Positions 24,567 through 33,342 of a stretch of 64,000 nucleotides of DNA are shown piece after piece (position 1 is the first letter of the stretch; each line of letters begins with the position of its first letter). The stretch spans positions 1 to 64,000 of the forward strand of contig JAOZIH010000009.1 in assembly GCA_026014545.1 (NCBI GenBank), read 5' to 3'. The notes below the pieces were generated by a model. That model was not told the DNA's origin, searched no databases, and saw only the letters and a program-made list of their open reading frames with translations. The position numbers and the translations under genes were made by a program. The DNA comes from Candidatus Bathyarchaeota archaeon. GTDB taxonomy: Archaea; Thermoproteota; Bathyarchaeia; Bathyarchaeales; Bathycorpusculaceae.

Positions 24567-25799
24567 TTAGTGCATGTGTTTTTGAAAACTCTTTGGTTTA
24601 TAATTAATTAAGCGGCCCATACGGCTGTCACTTTCAAAGACATCTTTGATTAATGTTCTGGATATTTCCAGCCTAATCTTTTTTGTGCGCCCATAACGTC
24701 CCATGCTAACTACCTTTGCATTTAAAATGCCCATAGCATCAAGCTCATTAATTAAAGTACCCAAGCGCCTTTGCGTAAGTAGCCCTATCCCTAATTCACC
24801 ACAAAGTTCGTTGTAGATGTCATAGATTTCTCCAGTAGTAACGCTGGACTTATTCAAGCTGTACACACTTAAAAGAACAAGTTTAGAATGCAAGGTTAAG
24901 TTCCTCAAAGCTTCAACAACCCGATTATGTTCAATATGCTTCTCGGCTTCTCTAACATGCTCCTCCAAAATCATCCTTGCCCCTTGGCGTTCGGCGACCT
25001 CCCCAGCAACGCGCAGCAAATCCAAAGCACGTCTAGCATCGCCATGTTCAGCAGCAGCTAAAGCAGAGCAAACATTCAAAGCCGCTTCGGAAAGAACACC
25101 CTCATAGAAAGATAATTTTGACCTTTCAAGCAGAATATTTCGCAATTCGCTCGCGTCATAAGGCCTAAAAACCAGCTCTTCTTCGCTGAGAGAACTGAAA
25201 ACTCGAGGGTCCAGGAATTCTTTTAAACGAAGGTCATTTGAGATGCCAATTATTGAAACTTTACTTTTATTCAATGTTTCATTTATTCTTGTTAACTCAT
25301 AAAGAAGTTTATCACCGCGGTTTTTAATTAACGCGTCTATTTCATCTAAGACCACAATAAAAATTGTTTTTGCCGCATCTAAACCCGCTCTGAACCTATC
25401 AAAAACTTCATCCACAGACAAACCAGTAAAAGGTACACTTATGCCTACACTTTGGCTTAAACCAGCGAAAACACGATATTCAGAACCTGTCATTCGGCAG
25501 TTCACATAAGAAAACTTTACAGGAACATTATACATTTTTGCTTTAGTTTCCAAATGACTTAGCACGTATTTGGTAACAGCAGTTTTGCCAGTGCCAGTAT
25601 TGCCATAAATGAAAATGTTAGAGCATCTCGAAACTTTCAAAACAGGTGCAACTATTGTACCAAGAAGACGTATTTGCTCCTCTCTATGGGGTAATTTTTC
25701 TGGGATATAATCATGCCTTAAAACTTCACGGTCTTTGAATATCTGTGCGCTATTCACGAAATTTTCAAAGACATCATCAAGTATCTTTTGATCAACCAT
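24567..25799 (-). CDS. cdc6: origin-binding initiator Orc1/Cdc6
   Basis: AAA+ initiator that binds origin boxes and loads MCM. Walker A GNTGTGKT (66-73), Walker B FIVVLDEID (147-155), sensor-1 region ISNDLRLKEFLDPRV, and a C-terminal winged helix (about 310-395). 410 residues. GGAG lies about 9 nt before the ATG. It is divergent from a 795-bp non-coding AT-rich region with ORB-like boxes, as is usual for an archaeal origin next to its initiator gene. Confidence 0.96.
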   Translation of the reverse strand: MVDQKILDDVFENFVNSAQIFKDREVLRHDYIPEKLPHREEQIRLLGTIVAPVLKVSRCSNIFIYGNTGTGKTAVTKYVLSHLETKAKMYNVPVKFSYVNCRMTGSEYRVFAGLSQSVGISVPFTGLSVDEVFDRFRAGLDAAKTIFIVVLDEIDALIKNRGDKLLYELTRINETLNKSKVSIIGISNDLRLKEFLDPRVFSSLSEEELVFRPYDASELRNILLERSKLSFYEGVLSEAALNVCSALAAAEHGDARRALDLLRVAGEVAERQGARMILEEHVREAEKHIEHNRVVEALRNLTLHSKLVLLSVYSLNKSSVTTGEIYDIYNELCGELGIGLLTQRRLGTLINELDAMGILNAKVVSMGRYGRTKKIRLEISRTLIKDVFESDSRMGRLINYKPKSFQKHMH

Positions 25800-25945
25800 T
25801 TTCTCGCTCTCCTTTTCAGCGGCACTACCGTTATTTCAAGTGGAGCAAATAAAGCATGCAGTATAAAAAACTATATTTAATATTCAATAATCCTAAAAAT
25901 TAACGAACCAAGAAGATGACATTTGCCTAAGTACAGCAAGCACAC

Positions 25946-25971
25946 ACCCCAAAATTTCGACTGGAAATATA
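25946..25971 (-). promoter_or_regulatory. ORB-like origin box 1
   Basis: ACCCC followed by AAAATTTCGACTGGAAATATA on the plus strand. TTTCGACTGGAA matches the ORB core TTTCCACTGGAA at 11 of 12 positions, with ACCCC (GGGGT on the other strand) at the expected side. It faces opposite to box 2. Confidence 0.65.
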
Positions 25972-26029
25972 CTCTTTAACTGATAATTATTTTTGATTTC
26001 TTTCTTCAAAAGAAATATACTCCAAGAGG

Positions 26030-26110
26030 TAAGTATTGTAACAATATATTAATTATTACCGTTAAGAAAATTAGATAAATAATTAACAATTTTTCTACCG
26101 GCATTTTCTA
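26030..26110. other. AT-rich core between opposed ORB-like boxes (possible duplex unwinding element)
   Basis: Almost pure A/T with runs such as ATATATTAATTATTA and AGATAAATAATTAACAAT, lying between ORB-like boxes 1 and 2. This is the usual place for strand opening in archaeal origins. Confidence 0.5.
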
Positions 26111-26125
26111 CAACTCTATTTAGTT

Positions 26126-26151
26126 AATTTTTCGAGAGGAAATTAAGGGGT
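26126..26151 (+). promoter_or_regulatory. ORB-like origin box 2
   Basis: The plus strand carries GAGAGGAAATTAAGGGGT. Reverse-complemented, it matches box 1 at 19 of 26 positions, including ACCCC, AATTTC, CT and GAAA. It is inverted relative to boxes 1 and 3. Confidence 0.55.
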
Positions 26152-26282
26152 GTCTCTGTTCCATGTATTTTTTACATTACTAAAAAATAATTTACGTTAC
26201 ATTGGTAGACATGTCATCCCATGAAAAGCTAATATTAAAGCTTCAAGTCGTGCCTGCTTAACGTCTAACATAGGCAACTTCC

Positions 26283-26298
26283 TTCACAATTTTGTGAA
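26283..26298. repeat. palindrome TTCACAA-TT-TTGTGAA
   Basis: Perfect 7-bp arms with a 2-nt centre. A second palindrome of similar core (ACAA-NN-TTGT) lies with its centre exactly 30 bp away, so two dimers would bind the same helix face. Confidence 0.6.
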
Positions 26299-26312
26299 AA
26301 CCATGTGAAATT

Positions 26313-26328
26313 ACAACAAAATTGTTGT
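26313..26328. repeat. palindrome ACAACAA-AA-TTGTTGT
   Basis: Perfect 7-bp arms with a 2-nt centre, 30 bp centre-to-centre from the previous palindrome. Located between the origin core and the wHTH gene at 26607. Confidence 0.6.
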
Positions 26329-26388
26329 TTATTAGCTGTCTTTTCCATAAAATTACCATTTTCTTTGCTTGTTTTCTGTGAAGCTACC

Positions 26389-26414
26389 ACCCCTACACTT
26401 CTATTGGAAATATA
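26389..26414 (-). promoter_or_regulatory. ORB-like origin box 3
   Basis: ACCCC, 8 nt, then TATTGGAAATATA. It matches box 1 at 21 of 26 positions in the same orientation and with identical internal spacing. Confidence 0.6.
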
Positions 26415-26606
26415 AAAATTAAATAAACTTTCATTTATTTTTGTTTTCTGAGAATTAGTGAAACTTGTAAAACTAAATAAACTGCTTATTTTGCTTATTT
26501 TCCTATTTTCGCCATTTTTTGAGCTTTTAACTTTTTAGCTTTTTACCATAACAGCTATAAGTTGTGAAGTGTAAAGTTTGTGAACGGCACCTAGGTGTAC
26601 TCTATA

Positions 26607-27038
26607 ATGCCAGCGCGTAAAATGCGTGTAGAGCTATTCGATAGCGAAGGCAATCGTTACACTATATCCTTCGAGGGGCAAATTACCAGAGAGAAAGCTC
26701 TACACTTGTTGGATCTCGTAGAACTTCTAGGTGGCATGCCCAACGAAGAACAACCTTTAAGCGCTGGCGCAAATTTGCCAAATAACCCGCTTTCAAGATT
26801 TGAAAAAGTGCACTATATAATCAAAAAACACTTTCCAATAATATGGTTTTCTTCAAAAGATGTTCAATCAGTTTATGAGCAAGAACTTAAGGAGCCAATA
26901 AGCCTTAGTACCGTCTCAACTTATCTTTCGAGAATGGCAAATAAAGGTTTACTTCTAAGAACCGGTGGAGCAAATAACCTGAAGTATAAAGTTGCGCCAA
27001 ATGTGCCTCAAGCTGCAATAAAGCAGCAGTTCAAATAA
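26607..27038 (+). CDS. winged-helix protein next to the origin
   Basis: 143 residues. The N-terminal half is beta-rich (RVELFDSEGNRYTISFEGQI) and is followed by a helix LHLLDLVELLGG. The C-terminal half is a winged helix (about 65-130, FSSKDVQSVYEQELK then LSTVSTYLSRMANKGLL). AGGTG lies 9 nt before the ATG at 26607, which is preferred to GTG 26595. It precedes nurA-herA and is the first gene on this side of the probable origin. It may regulate that cassette or bind the nearby palindromes. Confidence 0.7.
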   Translation: MPARKMRVELFDSEGNRYTISFEGQITREKALHLLDLVELLGGMPNEEQPLSAGANLPNNPLSRFEKVHYIIKKHFPIIWFSSKDVQSVYEQELKEPISLSTVSTYLSRMANKGLLLRTGGANNLKYKVAPNVPQAAIKQQFK

Positions 27039-27124
27039 AATTGAAATTTTTACTCCTAAATTATTTTAACTGCGTTTTTATATTTCTAAGAAATATTGAG
27101 CTAATAGCGTACTTGGGCGAGTTG

Positions 27125-28143
27125 ATGAAAACCTCTCTTGAACCAGATTTAGTCGAGATGGAAAGTAAACTGAAATGTTATGTGGACAAAGGCCGGGTTT
27201 CTGGCAATACTGAAACAATAGAAGAACTAACCTTTTATGTTAAACCGAATAAAAGTTTAATAAAACCTTTACAGAAGCAAGATCGTTTTGATGGAACCTT
27301 TATAGCTGTTGATTGCTCCACGCGGACACTAAAAAGGGCAAACAATTGGGGAATTTATCTAATGCGCGCTGCTTATGTATCCGTAAAAGAGCGCATTGTT
27401 GATTGGGACTATTTTGAGAAAGTATGCACAGTTGTCGGAGATGCACGAACACGCAGAAGTTACCTGCAAGACTTCAGAATCGAGTTGGAAAGCCAATTCG
27501 CTCTAAACACGCTTAAAAGCGCCCCTTTCTGCCTCTTACCACGTACATAGTGATGTACGTAGTATCTACCTGCTTCTGGACGGCGGGGATATTTCGGTGG
27601 CGAAAGAAAATTTCGTGTGTCACTCTATGATGAATGCAAAAAACATGAAATTAAACTCATAGCAATTAGTAAAAACTCCCCTTCTCTGCATGATGATAAG
27701 GGAAGAGATTTGCTTTCTACTACGTACATTATGGCCCCCTATGACATTTGGGTTTACCACCCAGTGCAAAAGGCTGACAAAGAAAAAAGTTTGTATGGGA
27801 TATAGCGCTTGTAAAACTATGTGCTGACAGCCCTTATGTTTTCCGTTGCGATATAATGGATTACTTAATCCAGAATGATATCTGCGAGCTGCTTTCACCT
27901 TTAACCGTCATATCCAACGACCCACGATGTCTTGGATATCCAATAAGTCTTTACTTAGCGCATGAATTTTCAACACCTTCCGATTCCATGTTACTATTTT
28001 ATCATGAACAAATTGAAGGAAAACTAAAAGACGCTGGCTTACTTGAAATCCTACGCAGCGAAGAACTTTCATGCAGCTTTGCAGATAAAATTCACGGCAT
28101 AAAATATGCGTTTGAGTGGGAGTGGTGGGATGGTCAACCCTGA
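27125..28143 (+). pseudogene. nurA: NurA-like nuclease gene with three frameshifts
   Basis: NurA is the 5'-3' nuclease partner of HerA in DNA-end resection. The first segment has the metal site FIAVDCSTRTLKRA; the second, in another frame, has SIYLLLDGG; the third and fourth carry APYDIWVYHP, then DIALVKLCADSPYVFRCDIMDYL and the C terminus. Joining them needs removal of one C near 27522-27525, addition of one G near 27585-27590 and one A in the A-run near 27780-27790, all at short homopolymers. The last segment overlaps herA by 14 nt. Either the sequence has errors or the gene is decaying; the reading frames between breaks look well conserved. Confidence 0.7.
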
Positions 28144-29662
28144 ACCAATAGGCTTTGTATGTGGAACTAAAGGAGATTCTGTTTCTTTCTTAGTTAATAA
28201 GAATGTTAATTTGGCCTTTGGTCAAATAGTTCGCATAGACTCAAGTGATCGGTGCTTCTATGCTAGAGTAGTTAACTCGGAAAGTAGTTCTACCCTTGAA
28301 ACTATAGAGCAGTTACGAGAGGCTGAAGGCAAAGAAGCTTTTGGCCCATACTCGGCATATAGACGTGTAGAAGCCATGCTCTTCCTAGAAAAAAGAGGCG
28401 GTAGAGTACGCTCGCCTACTTTTAATCCAAATTATCGAGATAAAGTCTATGCAACAAGCGAGGAAGACTGTTCCATTCTCAAACTTTCCGGAGACCTTAA
28501 ACTTGGTCGCTTACGTTCAGCAGACCAACTTCTAGGCACGGTTGGCATAGATATTTCCGCAATTCCTAGAATGATGGGTATGTTTGGCATGACAGGCTCA
28601 GGTAAAACGAATACCGAGCTGATTCTTAACGCTCAAATAATTGATAACAGTCCAAGGACAGTGGCGTTAATCTACGATTTTGCAGGTCAACTTTTGGAAG
28701 GGAAAGAAATCGAACCGCAAAGAGGCTTAAAAGATCACCCCTTATTCCACAGCAAGGTTCAATATTACTCTGCTAAAGATAGAAAACTGGCAGTTGGTTT
28801 GCGAACGATAACGCCTGCAAAGCTAGACACACTATTTCCAGATATTCAACCACCTCAAAAAAGATTCGCTTGGGCTTTGTACCAACATTTCGGGGTCACA
28901 TGGATCGAGATGAGCCGAGAAATATATGCTAATAGCGAGAAGCTTCCTGTACATGCAAACAAAGTTGTTGTTGAAGCTCTAATACAAAAGCTTTCCTCTT
29001 TGTCAAATGAGCTTTTCCCTGCCACTAATTATTCCTTCGTCAACAGCGTTTTGCAGAATATTTGTAAAGGCATAACTTGTTTAATTGACATTTCAGGTCT
29101 TCGTTCCGAAGACCAAAAACGCATTGTTTGCTTATCAGCGTCTGTAGTTGCAGAACATTACAAGCACGCGTGGGAGGAGAATTATGAAGAATGGCAGAAA
29201 CTCCCTACTTTACTCATAACTCTTGAAGAAGCCCATGAATTTCTCGACCCAAATAGCTCCCGAACAATTTTTTCAGACGTTGCCCTTACCTATCGCAAAT
29301 ACCGTGTTGGCCTTAATGCTGTGACACCTCGACCCTCCAGAATCACTTTTGATGTTTTCGCTGAGTTGTGGACTAAAGTTATAATGAAAACAGAACTAAA
29401 GAAAGACCGGCAATACCTGACCGAAAACACACCCTACATGGAATACAGTGAAACCGAAATAAAAATGCTTGATGTAGGCGAAGCCCTTCTTATTTCTGAA
29501 CCAAAAATCAAATTTGCTGTACCAATAAAAGTAACTCATTACCCTGCTTACTTGGAGAAACGGGGCAATGCTGACTATAGTCTTGCTGCCTCTTCGCCCC
29601 TTGCAAGTATGGACACGCGTCTTAAACAGTTAAGTGAACAAAGCACGAAACCTCTAATGTAA
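28130..29662 (+). CDS. herA: HerA-like hexameric DNA translocase
   Basis: FtsK/HerA-superfamily ATPase that drives NurA in end resection. HAS-barrel at the N terminus (about 1-95), Walker A FGMTGSGKTN (about 153-161), Walker B LLITLEEAHEFL near 370, and an arginine-rich TYRKYRVGLNAVTPRPSR segment. About 510 residues. The ATG at 28130 lies behind GGAGTGGTGG and inside the end of nurA; a start at 28106 is less likely. mre11 and rad50, usual neighbours, are not in the window. Confidence 0.88.
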   Translation: MVNPEPIGFVCGTKGDSVSFLVNKNVNLAFGQIVRIDSSDRCFYARVVNSESSSTLETIEQLREAEGKEAFGPYSAYRRVEAMLFLEKRGGRVRSPTFNPNYRDKVYATSEEDCSILKLSGDLKLGRLRSADQLLGTVGIDISAIPRMMGMFGMTGSGKTNTELILNAQIIDNSPRTVALIYDFAGQLLEGKEIEPQRGLKDHPLFHSKVQYYSAKDRKLAVGLRTITPAKLDTLFPDIQPPQKRFAWALYQHFGVTWIEMSREIYANSEKLPVHANKVVVEALIQKLSSLSNELFPATNYSFVNSVLQNICKGITCLIDISGLRSEDQKRIVCLSASVVAEHYKHAWEENYEEWQKLPTLLITLEEAHEFLDPNSSRTIFSDVALTYRKYRVGLNAVTPRPSRITFDVFAELWTKVIMKTELKKDRQYLTENTPYMEYSETEIKMLDVGEALLISEPKIKFAVPIKVTHYPAYLEKRGNADYSLAASSPLASMDTRLKQLSEQSTKPLM

Positions 29663-30376
29663 TCACACTTGCTCGCTTTCTGCTTTCTTCAAGAACTTTA
29701 CCATTTCTTTCTTGACGCTGTACCTGAATGGGATTTTGCCAGTTTCTCTTTCAAGGTAGCCTTCTTCATAGAGTTTCTTCATAAGTCTTGCTGTATGTTC
29801 TCTGCTCAGTCCGATTTTGTCCCTGATCTCAGGCGCCGTTTTTGGCCCTTCCGCCGTAAGTAGTTCTAAAACTGCCACTTCCGTGTCCGTTAATGCCGAC
29901 ATAGCTTTGTCTCTTCTTATTGGTATAACTGGCTCGCTCTTTATTTCTGGCATCGCAGATGCTTTTTGCACCTGCTCTTCAATCTCGGTGATTTTTATTT
30001 TCAGAGTTTGGCATGCTGCCTCAACATTATTGGTTTTTGTTTCAACTTCTGTCGTCTTTGATAAAAGACTTGTATACTTTTCAGAAAGCACGCTCAATGC
30101 ATTTTCTATAACTGCTAACTTCTTTTCAATGTTCTCCGCTTTCTTAAGGCTTGTTTCTGCCTTTGCTGCGCTTCCTTCTACCTTATAAATAAGCGCCTCT
30201 GTATTTTCAGCATTTCTTTTTAGTTCGCGATTAAAACTAAGCACTATGTCCTCTATGATTCCTCTAGCTTTCTCATATTCTTTCTGAGCTTTACAGATAT
30301 GTTTATAATACTCAATAGCTGCGCCAATTGTTACTGTAAGTAAGAGTCCCATAAGCATTAATAGGCCTTCGATCAC
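29663..30376 (-). CDS. membrane-anchored coiled-coil protein with C-terminal winged helix
   Basis: 237 residues: an N-terminal transmembrane helix (LLMLMGLLLTVTIGAAI), a long coiled coil (about 30-145, heptad-rich with KVEGSAAKAETSLKKAENIE), a linker, and a MarR-like winged helix (about 160-225, LTDTEVAVLELLTAEGPKTA then LSREHTARLMKKLYEEG). The topology suggests DNA held at the membrane by a dimer or bundle. GTG start at 30376 with GGAGG 8 nt upstream. Its upstream region holds tandem ATCACA heptamers, its possible binding sites. Function is not known; it could be a sensor-regulator or a chromosome anchor. Confidence 0.75.
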   Translation of the reverse strand: MIEGLLMLMGLLLTVTIGAAIEYYKHICKAQKEYEKARGIIEDIVLSFNRELKRNAENTEALIYKVEGSAAKAETSLKKAENIEKKLAVIENALSVLSEKYTSLLSKTTEVETKTNNVEAACQTLKIKITEIEEQVQKASAMPEIKSEPVIPIRRDKAMSALTDTEVAVLELLTAEGPKTAPEIRDKIGLSREHTARLMKKLYEEGYLERETGKIPFRYSVKKEMVKFLKKAESEQV

Positions 30377-30499
30377 ATCGCTTTCCTCCGTGATTCAGCC
30401 GTGATTTAACACGTTGCATCACACATCACAGTTTTCCATACAACATTTAAGTTTTATGGTGATTTGGCGATGATCTTCTTATGACATCACAGATCACAG
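30372..30499. repeat. ATCACA heptamer cluster, left group
   Basis: ATCACA at 30372-30377, CGTGATT at 30389-30395 and 30400-30406, a tandem pair ATCACAC-ATCACAG at 30418-30431, and ATCACAG-ATCACAG at 30486-30499. The period inside the pairs is exactly 7 bp. It lies just upstream of the membrane-anchored wHTH gene. Confidence 0.65.
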
Positions 30500-30630
30500 C
30501 AATTACTTCTTTCCGCTTCGCCCCATCCCTCATTTAAAATCTCTTGTTTTTTGGCTTATTTTGCATTTTAAGCTCGTTAAACCTGCGTGTCAATACTGCT
30601 TCATGCTGTGCAGAGAATGTTGTTATTTAG

Positions 30631-30649
30631 TGTGATTTGTGACGTCACA
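30631..30649. repeat. TGTGATT-TGTGACG-TCACA element
   Basis: Two tandem heptamers merging into the perfect 12-bp palindrome TGTGACGTCACA (30638-30649). It overlaps the stop codon of the gene at 30645-31124. Confidence 0.6.
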
Positions 30650-31124
30650 CTTCTTCAGCGGAGGCAGAAGAAAGCCGTTTTAGGCTTGTTTCAAGCTCTT
30701 CACGTATGATTTCTATGATTTTTAGATGGTCTTTTCGCTCTTTATCTGTTTCTGGTAGGTCTTTGTAGGCTTCGACGTATTCTTTCAGTTTATTGGCGAT
30801 TTCGAGATATGGATCAAGAGTTGTAGTTTCAAAAATTCCTAGATATCCTAAAAGCAGTACTGTGTATATCGATTTTACCACATTTTCTTTTGCCTGCTTT
30901 AAAGTCCTATTGAACGATCCTCGGCTTATTTTAGCCTTTGTTAGCCTTAATTTGGCTTTTTCATCGTATTTTAAAGGTTTGCCTGAAATATTTTCAGCTA
31001 AAATGTCTATGAGCAATGTTTCTAGCTGTGTTTTTGTTAATTGGCTGTTTTTGTAGAGTATTTGTGCAACGGGGTCGTTTAGTGCTCCGTTTAACCACGC
31101 TTGAATGCCTTCCTTTAGCCTCAA
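30645..31124 (-). CDS. helical DNA-binding-like protein of unknown function
   Basis: 159 residues, helical throughout. The core KAKISRGSFNRTLKQAKENV followed by VKSIYTVLLLGYLGIF looks like an HTH plus a hydrophobic helix, a pattern I recall in uncharacterised archaeal proteins. The C-terminal third is charged and helical. The start is TTG at 31124 with GGAGA about 8 nt upstream. It is bordered on both sides by ATCACA heptamers and shares strand with the membrane-anchored wHTH gene 268 nt downstream, with which it may form a system. Confidence 0.65.
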   Translation of the reverse strand: MRLKEGIQAWLNGALNDPVAQILYKNSQLTKTQLETLLIDILAENISGKPLKYDEKAKLRLTKAKISRGSFNRTLKQAKENVVKSIYTVLLLGYLGIFETTTLDPYLEIANKLKEYVEAYKDLPETDKERKDHLKIIEIIREELETSLKRLSSASAEEV

Positions 31125-31644
31125 TGTCTTCTCTCCTGAGACCTTTCAAATGGATACATTTTTGTATACTGGTGCTGCATTTAAACTTGTTGAATTATAT
31201 TTGCAAGTTATTCCCATTAAAAATGCAGTTGATTTGCTTTTTTTTAAAAAAAGTGTATTTTAGATAATTAATACAAAAATAGACTATAAAAAGTGGCTTT
31301 TAGTAATTTTAGTCTTAAATCATGCCTTAATTTCTCAAAAACTACTAATGCTCTTTCTACACAATTGCCTTTACTCATTTGGTACACGGGTTTCTTTTAT
31401 TTCTGCAGCCATTTTAAAAGTCCTCTGTGCACTTGCATATGCATTGCCTTTTGGGTTCTCTTTATTCCTTTCTTCAAACTTTGCACGACCTTGTCAGCAT
31501 TGAGTGGCAAGTACTCTCTTAACTGTGAAGCGTGATATCATTCATCACAAATAAATCACGCGTGATTATGCTCTAATACTTGATATCACAAAAGAGTGTG
31601 ATGCACTTGTGATGTGTGATACGTTTCCTGATTATAGCTGGAAG
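31125..31644. other. 520-bp intergenic region with cryptic minus-strand reading frames
   Basis: No convincing gene. On the minus strand one frame gives QLREYLPLNADKVVQSLKKG and ends at 31397. After that stop the same frame gives a 36-residue reading (31268-31378, MSKGNCVERALVVFEKLR). Neither has a good start signal. Both could be remnants of one small gene. The right part (31524-31620) holds ATCACA heptamers. Confidence 0.5.
31524..31620. repeat. ATCACA heptamer cluster, right group
   Basis: TGTGAAG-CGTGATA (31524-31537), ATCATTC-ATCACAA (31537-31550), the perfect palindrome ATCACGCGTGAT (31555-31566), ATCACA (31585-31590), TGTGATG (31597-31603) and TGTGATG-TGTGAT (31608-31620). The 7-bp tandem arrangement is the same as in the left group. 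Confidence 0.65.
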
Positions 31645-32499: not shown

Positions 32500-33342
32500 T
32501 CAGTACTTATGGCGCGGTAGTCTAAAATCAGCCCCTACTGTTCTATATTCAATTTTTGGTGCTAGAGGTAAGCGCCTTTTGTGTTCTACCGCAAGCCACC
32601 TACCTTTCACTTTCTCAATCAGCGCCTTTTCAACGCATAGTTGCTCTGCTATTTCTTCTGTTGCCATAAAGTGTTCAAGTCCGTAGAGGATAAGATCAAG
32701 AGTTTCATACTTGATGCCCAACTCTGTTTCTGCAAGCTGGTTGGGCCAAAGACCAGGTGTAGATGGTTTTGCTGCAAGCTCGTGTGGGATACCTATGTAT
32801 TCGGCGAGTTTTCGAACTTGAGTTTTGTATAAATCCATTATTGGCGCTATGTCTGCGGCTGCATCTCCCCATTTTGTGAAATAGCCCATCATTGTTTCTG
32901 ACTTATCAGAGCTTCCGCAGACTATCATGTTAAGCTTGTTGGCATAATAGTATAGGCAAATCATTCTGACTCTTGCTTTTATATTACCTTTACAAAGCTT
33001 GTCTTCTGGATCAAATACAGGTATTGTCTTGTAAAAGCTTTCCAAAATAGCTGTGATGTCACATATCTGTGTTTTCAAACCAAATTTTTCTGCAACAAAT
33101 TTCGCATCCTCAATGTCTCTGGAGTTGTATGTTTCACTTTCCGGAAGTATGAGTCCCATCACTCGGTTTCCACCGATTGCTAGGCTACAAAGCGCTGCTA
33201 CTGTGTTGCTGTCGATGCCGCCTGATAAGCCAAGAACGATGCCGTTGGCACCTGCGTTCTCAACGTATTCTTTGATGAAACGTTGAATTCGTTTCGTAAC
33301 TTCAGATAAATCCAGTTCCAGCACATCTGGTGCTAATTTCAT
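32500..33342 (-). CDS. nadE: NAD+ synthetase NadE
   Basis: ATP-dependent amidation of deamido-NAD to NAD, the last step of NAD synthesis. The adenylation P-loop SGGIDS (40-45) and the second conserved region GYFTKWGDAAADIAPIMDLYKTQ are present. At 280 residues it is the short, ammonia-type enzyme without a fused glutaminase. A nitrilase-family gene follows in the same operon. NAD kinase is at 42565. Confidence 0.95.
   Translation of the reverse strand: MKLAPDVLELDLSEVTKRIQRFIKEYVENAGANGIVLGLSGGIDSNTVAALCSLAIGGNRVMGLILPESETYNSRDIEDAKFVAEKFGLKTQICDITAILESFYKTIPVFDPEDKLCKGNIKARVRMICLYYYANKLNMIVCGSSDKSETMMGYFTKWGDAAADIAPIMDLYKTQVRKLAEYIGIPHELAAKPSTPGLWPNQLAETELGIKYETLDLILYGLEHFMATEEIAEQLCVEKALIEKVKGRWLAVEHKRRLPLAPKIEYRTVGADFRLPRHKY

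Follow-up and report, generated by a model that had tools for sequence, protein, structure and literature searches.

Two heptad-site arrays beside a gene for a predicted membrane-anchored winged-helix protein near a candidate replication origin in Bathyarchaeia and other Thermoproteota

Described partition systems and the P1-P2 locus

In the partition system of the streptococcal plasmid pSM19035, omega serves as ParB and delta as ParA, and the parS sites are built of the heptad 5'-WATCACW-3' (PMC9499535). Omega is a ribbon-helix-helix protein, the heptads stand in contiguous runs of 7-10, and they double as promoter operator and centromere (PMC9499535). Among chromosomal proteins, RocS of Streptococcus pneumoniae is membrane-bound and RacA of Bacillus subtilis binds repeated centromere-like sequences; here a winged helix and a coiled coil are found in a chromosome-anchoring or segregation protein (PMC11500499). 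For archaea, two systems have been described in which a site-specific protein binds next to its own gene: AspA of the pNOB8 AspA-ParB-ParA system, a winged helix-turn-helix (wHTH) segregation protein whose site is a palindrome, and Sulfolobus SegAB, whose palindromes are a proposed archaeal centromere (PMC5120986).

The locus analyzed here lies in a stretch of 64,000 nucleotides (the window) from a Bathyarchaeia genome of 1.86 Mb in 41 contigs; its relatives carry the names Candidatus Bathyarchaeota and Bathycorpusculum, and most of the genomes compared are metagenome assemblies. The features of the window used below are as follows.

24567..25799, minus strand: orc1/cdc6, the origin-linked paralogue (Pfam Cdc6_C and Cdc6_lid), linked in relatives
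25800..26594: candidate replication origin, the orc1-wH147 intergenic region, of conserved length, with ORB-like repeats and few ATCACA
26595..27038, plus strand: wH147, small, with a likely C-terminal winged helix, weak Pfam hits only and conserved synteny
29663..30376, minus strand: P1, GTG start, with predicted N-terminal membrane helix, coiled coil and C-terminal MarR/TrmB-type wHTH
30372..30430: block C, reaching from the P1 start codon as far as the expected transcription start, with sites at 30372, 30390, 30401, 30418 and 30425
30482..30498: block B, TGACATCACAGATCACA, lying upstream of the P1 promoter and matching the block A type in reverse complement
30631..30649: block A, TGTGATTTGTGACGTCACA, with a palindrome that includes the P2 stop codon, in the same place in most loci of the order
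30645..31124, minus strand: P2, between the two arrays, encoding an all-helical protein, the proposed partner
31532..31620: block D, the distal array about 400-500 bp upstream of P2; its core, 31532-31566, is GTGATATCATTCATCACAAATAAATCACGCGTGAT
31585, 31597, 31608 and 31615: outer sites of block D

The arrays share with pSM19035 the 7-bp unit with its ATCAC core and its use in direct and inverted orientation. They differ in that each block has only two or three half-sites in a row, in being chromosomal, and in that the candidate binder is a wHTH protein with a predicted membrane helix. Since omega is a ribbon-helix-helix protein and needs at least four contiguous units, the locus is not a member of the pSM19035 type: no run of at least four contiguous heptads was found there, and neither protein is a ribbon-helix-helix binder, P1 being of the wHTH class and P2 being modeled as all-helical without an N-terminal strand. 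The heptad match reads as convergence, not as membership. P2 as an omega-like binder was rejected on its AlphaFold2 (AF2) model and on its occurrence without arrays.

P1 resembles RocS and RacA in combining a winged helix with a coiled coil, and its predicted membrane helix adds the membrane attachment of this anchor type, but its order is reversed, with the membrane helix at the N-terminus, its wHTH is MarR/TrmB-like and not MerR-like (the best matches are TrmB and MarR in Pfam and MarR/ArsR among folds), and it is archaeal with a single compact site locus. The palindrome that AspA recognizes is 23 bp long, with spreading; the partners of AspA are ParB and ParA, and no membrane helix has been described for it. 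SegAB shows the same ambiguity between regulation and centromere function; its SegB acts together with the ParA-like SegA and has not been described as a membrane protein of the wHTH class. Neither SegB nor AspA was among the matches when P1 and P2 were searched against Pfam and PDB. Finally, MarR/TrmB regulators share with P1 the wHTH fold and probable self-repression, but P1 has a predicted membrane anchor, a long coiled coil and no regulon of sites, and its locus has arrays inside coding sequences and origin linkage. In the literature searched, which was covered in part, we found no description of P1, P2 or the arrays.

Arrays in the window and in relatives

ATCACA/TGTGAT occurs 12 times between 29662 and 31620 and 20 times in the remaining 62 kb, so that 12 of the 32 copies are packed into 3% of its length. 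The initial annotation, which had reported at least a dozen such heptamers, tandem pairs at 30418, 30486 and 31608 and two palindromes, was correct on these points, and the repeats make a stronger case than it had claimed; the palindromes are TGTGACGTCACA at 30638-30649 and ATCACGCGTGAT at 31555-31566. Its word "dispersed" needs correcting: the sites lie in discrete blocks of conserved layout and are not diffusely scattered. The TGTGAYRTCACA palindromes and the ATCACA tandem heptamers make up two arrays on either side of the P2 gene, and half-sites within the blocks are most often spaced by 7 bp, either direct or inverted. Only two stretches of the 64-kb window, 30372-30493 and 31532-31616, contain at least five GTGAY/RTCAC half-sites per 150 bp. 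A TATA-like CTTAAAT (minus strand, about 30446-30452; a promoter read by eye) lies just upstream of block C, which is part of a dense half-site cluster and conserved in layout across the order, and a lone TGTGAT at 29662-29667 coincides with the P1 stop codon.

A genome-wide count, proposed as a check in the initial annotation, bears out the local enrichment: the ATCACANATCACA tandem is not common, all three copies in the 1.86-Mb genome being at the P1-P2 locus, and its reversed control has no copy in the same 1.86 Mb. Chance or base composition as the cause of the repeats was rejected on the tandem count and the reversed controls. The genome's only further TGTGAYRTCACA palindrome is found at 33052-33063, inside the nadE coding sequence, where it encodes C-D-I-T; two relatives (G014 and G010) each have one TGTGAYRTCACA palindrome at a similar distance from P2. 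The nadE copy is possibly a further array element or a coding coincidence.

The restriction to the locus is general among relatives. In 61 genomes, 65 of 70 ATCACANATCACA tandems and 47 of 49 TGTGAYRTCACA palindromes lie within about 3 kb of P2, and a regulon-type regulator was rejected on this count; tandem or palindrome operators at promoters around the genome were not found, and weaker sites could escape detection. All 82 dense half-site clusters in 40 related loci (roughly 700 kb) are at the P1-P2 locus, typically with one array in front of P1 and a second upstream of P2. Across 41 loci of the order, ATCACA densities per kb were 18.1 in the P1-P2 intergenic region and 3.5 upstream of P2, compared with 0.46 in the candidate origin and 0.2-0.6 in coding sequence. 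In most of the order's loci block A spans the P2 stop codon and reads TG-TGA-YRTCACAnATCACA; TGTGA still supplies this stop codon in several ammonia oxidisers. A stricter three-site pattern, applied to 14 distant genomes, matched some loci only, plus a simple repeat.

In 23 relatives a PLP aminotransferase gene (family assigned from sequence motifs) is located between P2 and the nitrilase gene, and block D lies inside its coding sequence in the form GTGAYRTCACttATCACnnnnnnRTCACgtGTGAT. The homologous 171 bp contain 15.3 ATCACA and 36 GTGAY per kb in the resident aminotransferase genes, compared with 0.2 and 1.8 per kb in 30 homologues elsewhere, and synonymous-codon shuffles reach the observed clusters rarely or never. 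Coding constraint as the source of these sites was rejected on the shuffles and the 30 paralogues. In the loci L068, L075, L087 and others of the order, one and the same stretch of the aminotransferase gene is protein-coding sequence and DNA-site array. The lineage of the window no longer has this gene at the locus and has kept block D as non-coding DNA; where block D stands without the gene, the half-sites are the conserved part. In another genome (G422) a hypF-like gene separates P2 from P1: the palindrome remains at the P2 stop codon, a cluster lies within hypF about 1.5 kb from the P1 start, and at the P1 start itself there are isolated half-sites only. The sites in the aminotransferase coding sequence, their retention in non-coding DNA and the hypF cluster suggest that selection acts on the DNA sites beyond any role at the P1 promoter. 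Because one palindrome holds the P2 stop codon and arrays lie in the aminotransferase and hypF genes, the sites appear not to be promoter operators only. An element that sits in a neighbour's coding sequence and outlasts that gene is a natural experiment separating the function of the site from that of the gene.

Gene neighbourhood, P1 and P2

The orc1-wH147 intergenic region, the putative replication origin, has ORB-like CCAGTGGAA/CCAGTAGAA repeats in many relatives. Arrays as Orc1 binding sites (ORB) were rejected, because they lie outside this region and its repeats differ from theirs. Nearly every genome of the order carries, in succession, DP1, orc1, an intergenic region of about 700-890 bp, wH147, optional nurA-herA, P1 and P2, and beyond P2 usually come Nit, NadE, Elf1, GGGPS and DP2; an association of cdc6, DP1 and the origin was already known in Euryarchaeota (PMC2643942). 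The arrays are about 4-6 kb from the candidate origin in the window (about 4-5 kb from the probable origin in the initial annotation) and about 2-6 kb from it in nearly all genomes of the order. Two side observations concern the neighbouring genes. A second orc1/cdc6 paralogue, outside the window at G000:C33:194453-195562 and present also in most relatives, is unlinked to P1 and P2. A nurA-like gene ahead of the herA-like gene consists of separate short reading frames (27041-27550 and 27856-28143) without a Pfam hit and is perhaps broken or frameshifted; nurA-herA is often missing altogether from this place in relatives.

About 50 of 61 relatives have P1 and P2 as single-copy neighbours. Linkage of P1, P2 and orc1 holds throughout the order, and that of P2, P1 and wH147 in much of the phylum: in the ammonia-oxidiser families identified by AmoA (f21, f48 and f51), as in several further groups, P2 adjoins P1 and wH147 and usually orc1. 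The co-occurrence near orc1/cdc6 that the initial annotation had proposed to check in relatives is seen, and the outcome it had named as refuting was not, the genes being neither far from orc1 nor without repeats. Some lineages (L199-L207) have lost this linkage and have a P2-P1 pair with no orc1 within the stretch examined. In G038, G043 and G044, P1, P2 and both repeat types are gone together; G044 is additionally without the origin-linked orc1, and the G043 contig stops just past orc1. As a further observation, wH147 stays beside orc1 and P2 across the phylum even where P1 has been lost.

The transmembrane, coiled-coil and wHTH architecture assigned to P1 from the start is supported by Pfam (TrmB 30 bits, cut-off 25.6; MarR 29.6 bits, cut-off 24.6; HTH_27 also above its cut-off), by Foldseek matches to MarR/ArsR folds, and by the AF2 model, in which a helix at residues 2-140, with a coiled coil to about residue 140, is followed by the wHTH. 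The N-terminal helix is hydrophobic, and membrane helix, coiled coil and wHTH are predicted, in this order, within a single protein with virtually no extracellular part. Proteins of the ToxR/CadC type are membrane sensors, and P1, having virtually no extracellular part, does not look like one of them. P2, highly conserved with a mean column identity of 69% over 31 sequences and a conserved basic stretch RGxFNRTLxQ, matched no Pfam and no PDB family; its AF2 model (pLDDT 80) gave no usable fold match in Foldseek. P2 homologues were found in 156 of 397 genomes at the phylum level, ammonia oxidisers included.

An unbiased search for enriched 6-mers within 1 kb of P2 returned ATCACA as the top word both in ammonia oxidisers, with 69 copies against 11 expected, and in seven further loci that have P1, with 66 against 5.9. 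Where P1 is short or has no membrane helix, the top words were ACGTCA, GACGTC and CGTCAC, which make up the core of the same palindrome, and in P1-less lineages the search gave no related word within 1 kb of P2. More than 2 ATCACA per kb were found in all 14 P1-bearing loci of the first two groups and in none of 13 P1-less loci (Fisher p = 5e-8, uncorrected for shared ancestry). The arrays thus track P1, whereas P2, and often wH147, persist in lineages without P1 or array (L186-L189, L194 and L208-L210), which makes P1 the likely binder as judged from these sequence comparisons.

Readings of the locus

We infer the following working model. P1 would be a membrane-anchored, site-specific DNA-binding protein, and its cognate sites would be TGTGAY/RTCACA half-sites 7 bp apart, arranged as palindromes and tandems beside the origin. 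Dimers or oligomers of P1, joined via the coiled coil, would occupy both arrays and bridge the 1.2-1.5 kb around P2, a dedicated partner in this scheme. P1 would thereby act as a centromere-like anchor, keeping DNA close to the origin at the membrane so that new origins are positioned or segregated, and would repress its own gene through block C. Partition proteins often repress their own genes, and autoregulation of P1 is likely, because block C overlaps its expected transcription start. We consider a centromere-like hold of P1 on origin-side DNA at the membrane, with self-repression added, about as probable as its opposite. The wider form, in which twin heptad arrays and a membrane-anchored wHTH binder constitute an ancient origin-side centromere serving segregation in Thermoproteota from Bathyarchaeia to ammonia oxidisers, we put somewhat short of even. 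The anchoring or segregation originally suggested is partly supported, by the tracking of P1 by the arrays across the phylum and by the arrays inside coding sequences; binding, attachment of DNA to the membrane and the segregation role are part of the model. Several observations count against an anchor: block C covers the expected P1 transcription start and most of the proximal sites lie no more than about 300 bp from P1, as in an operator; orc1 linkage is lost in L199-L207; and palindromes are still at the locus where P1 has no membrane helix (L191, L193, L214 and L223). Several P1 rows in the structure alignment start incomplete, so that their membrane-helix scores are too low.

Ordinary transcription control, offered at the outset as the simpler explanation, would make P1 a membrane-bound regulator of itself and perhaps of P2, with blocks A-C and D looping as a multi-site operator and the orc1 linkage reflecting old gene order. 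We hold this to be a serious but minority possibility. The position of block C, the MarR/TrmB type of the wHTH, the sites around the P2 end and P1 start in ammonia oxidisers, and the absence of sites elsewhere in the genome, as expected of a pure autoregulator, all agree with it. However, block D stands 400-750 bp away from P2 and, in 23 genomes, within another gene's coding sequence, in G422 the cluster and P1 are about 1.5 kb apart and separated by a gene, P1 has a predicted membrane anchor but no sensor domain, and a regulator targeting itself alone leaves its function unexplained. The arrays inside coding sequences thus argue against transcription control alone, while autoregulation as such remains likely.

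Control of replication initiation, in which P1 on the arrays would hold or sequester the origin or limit orc1, membrane attachment timing initiation, fits a candidate origin about 2-6 kb away in nearly all genomes of the order and the neighbours orc1, DP1 and DP2; it seems improbable to us, as the origin intergenic region is not enriched in sites (0.46/kb) and L199-L207 keep the P2-P1 pair with no orc1 within the stretch examined. A binder other than P1, which would overlap with the other readings, is marginally less probable again: the basic stretch of P2 could bind DNA, the arrays flank its gene and wH147 probably has a winged helix, but P2 and often wH147 are present without P1 and array, and high ATCACA density sets the P1-bearing loci of the two test groups completely apart from the P1-less loci. 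The single copy number and conserved order of the two genes speak against P1 and P2 as a toxin-antitoxin pair.

To return to P1 as an origin-side anchor, the locus has the look of a device, so far undescribed, by which chromosomes are held or sorted, with an elaborate self-regulating switch as the less likely alternative. The positioning and segregation of archaeal chromosomes are largely unexplained, and according to a 2024 review it is not understood how even SegA and SegB drive segregation in Sulfolobus (PMC7617429). A conserved, origin-linked array together with a dedicated, probably membrane-anchored protein provides a concrete candidate for segregation, and a heptad shared with a streptococcal plasmid centromere would then be a striking case of convergence.
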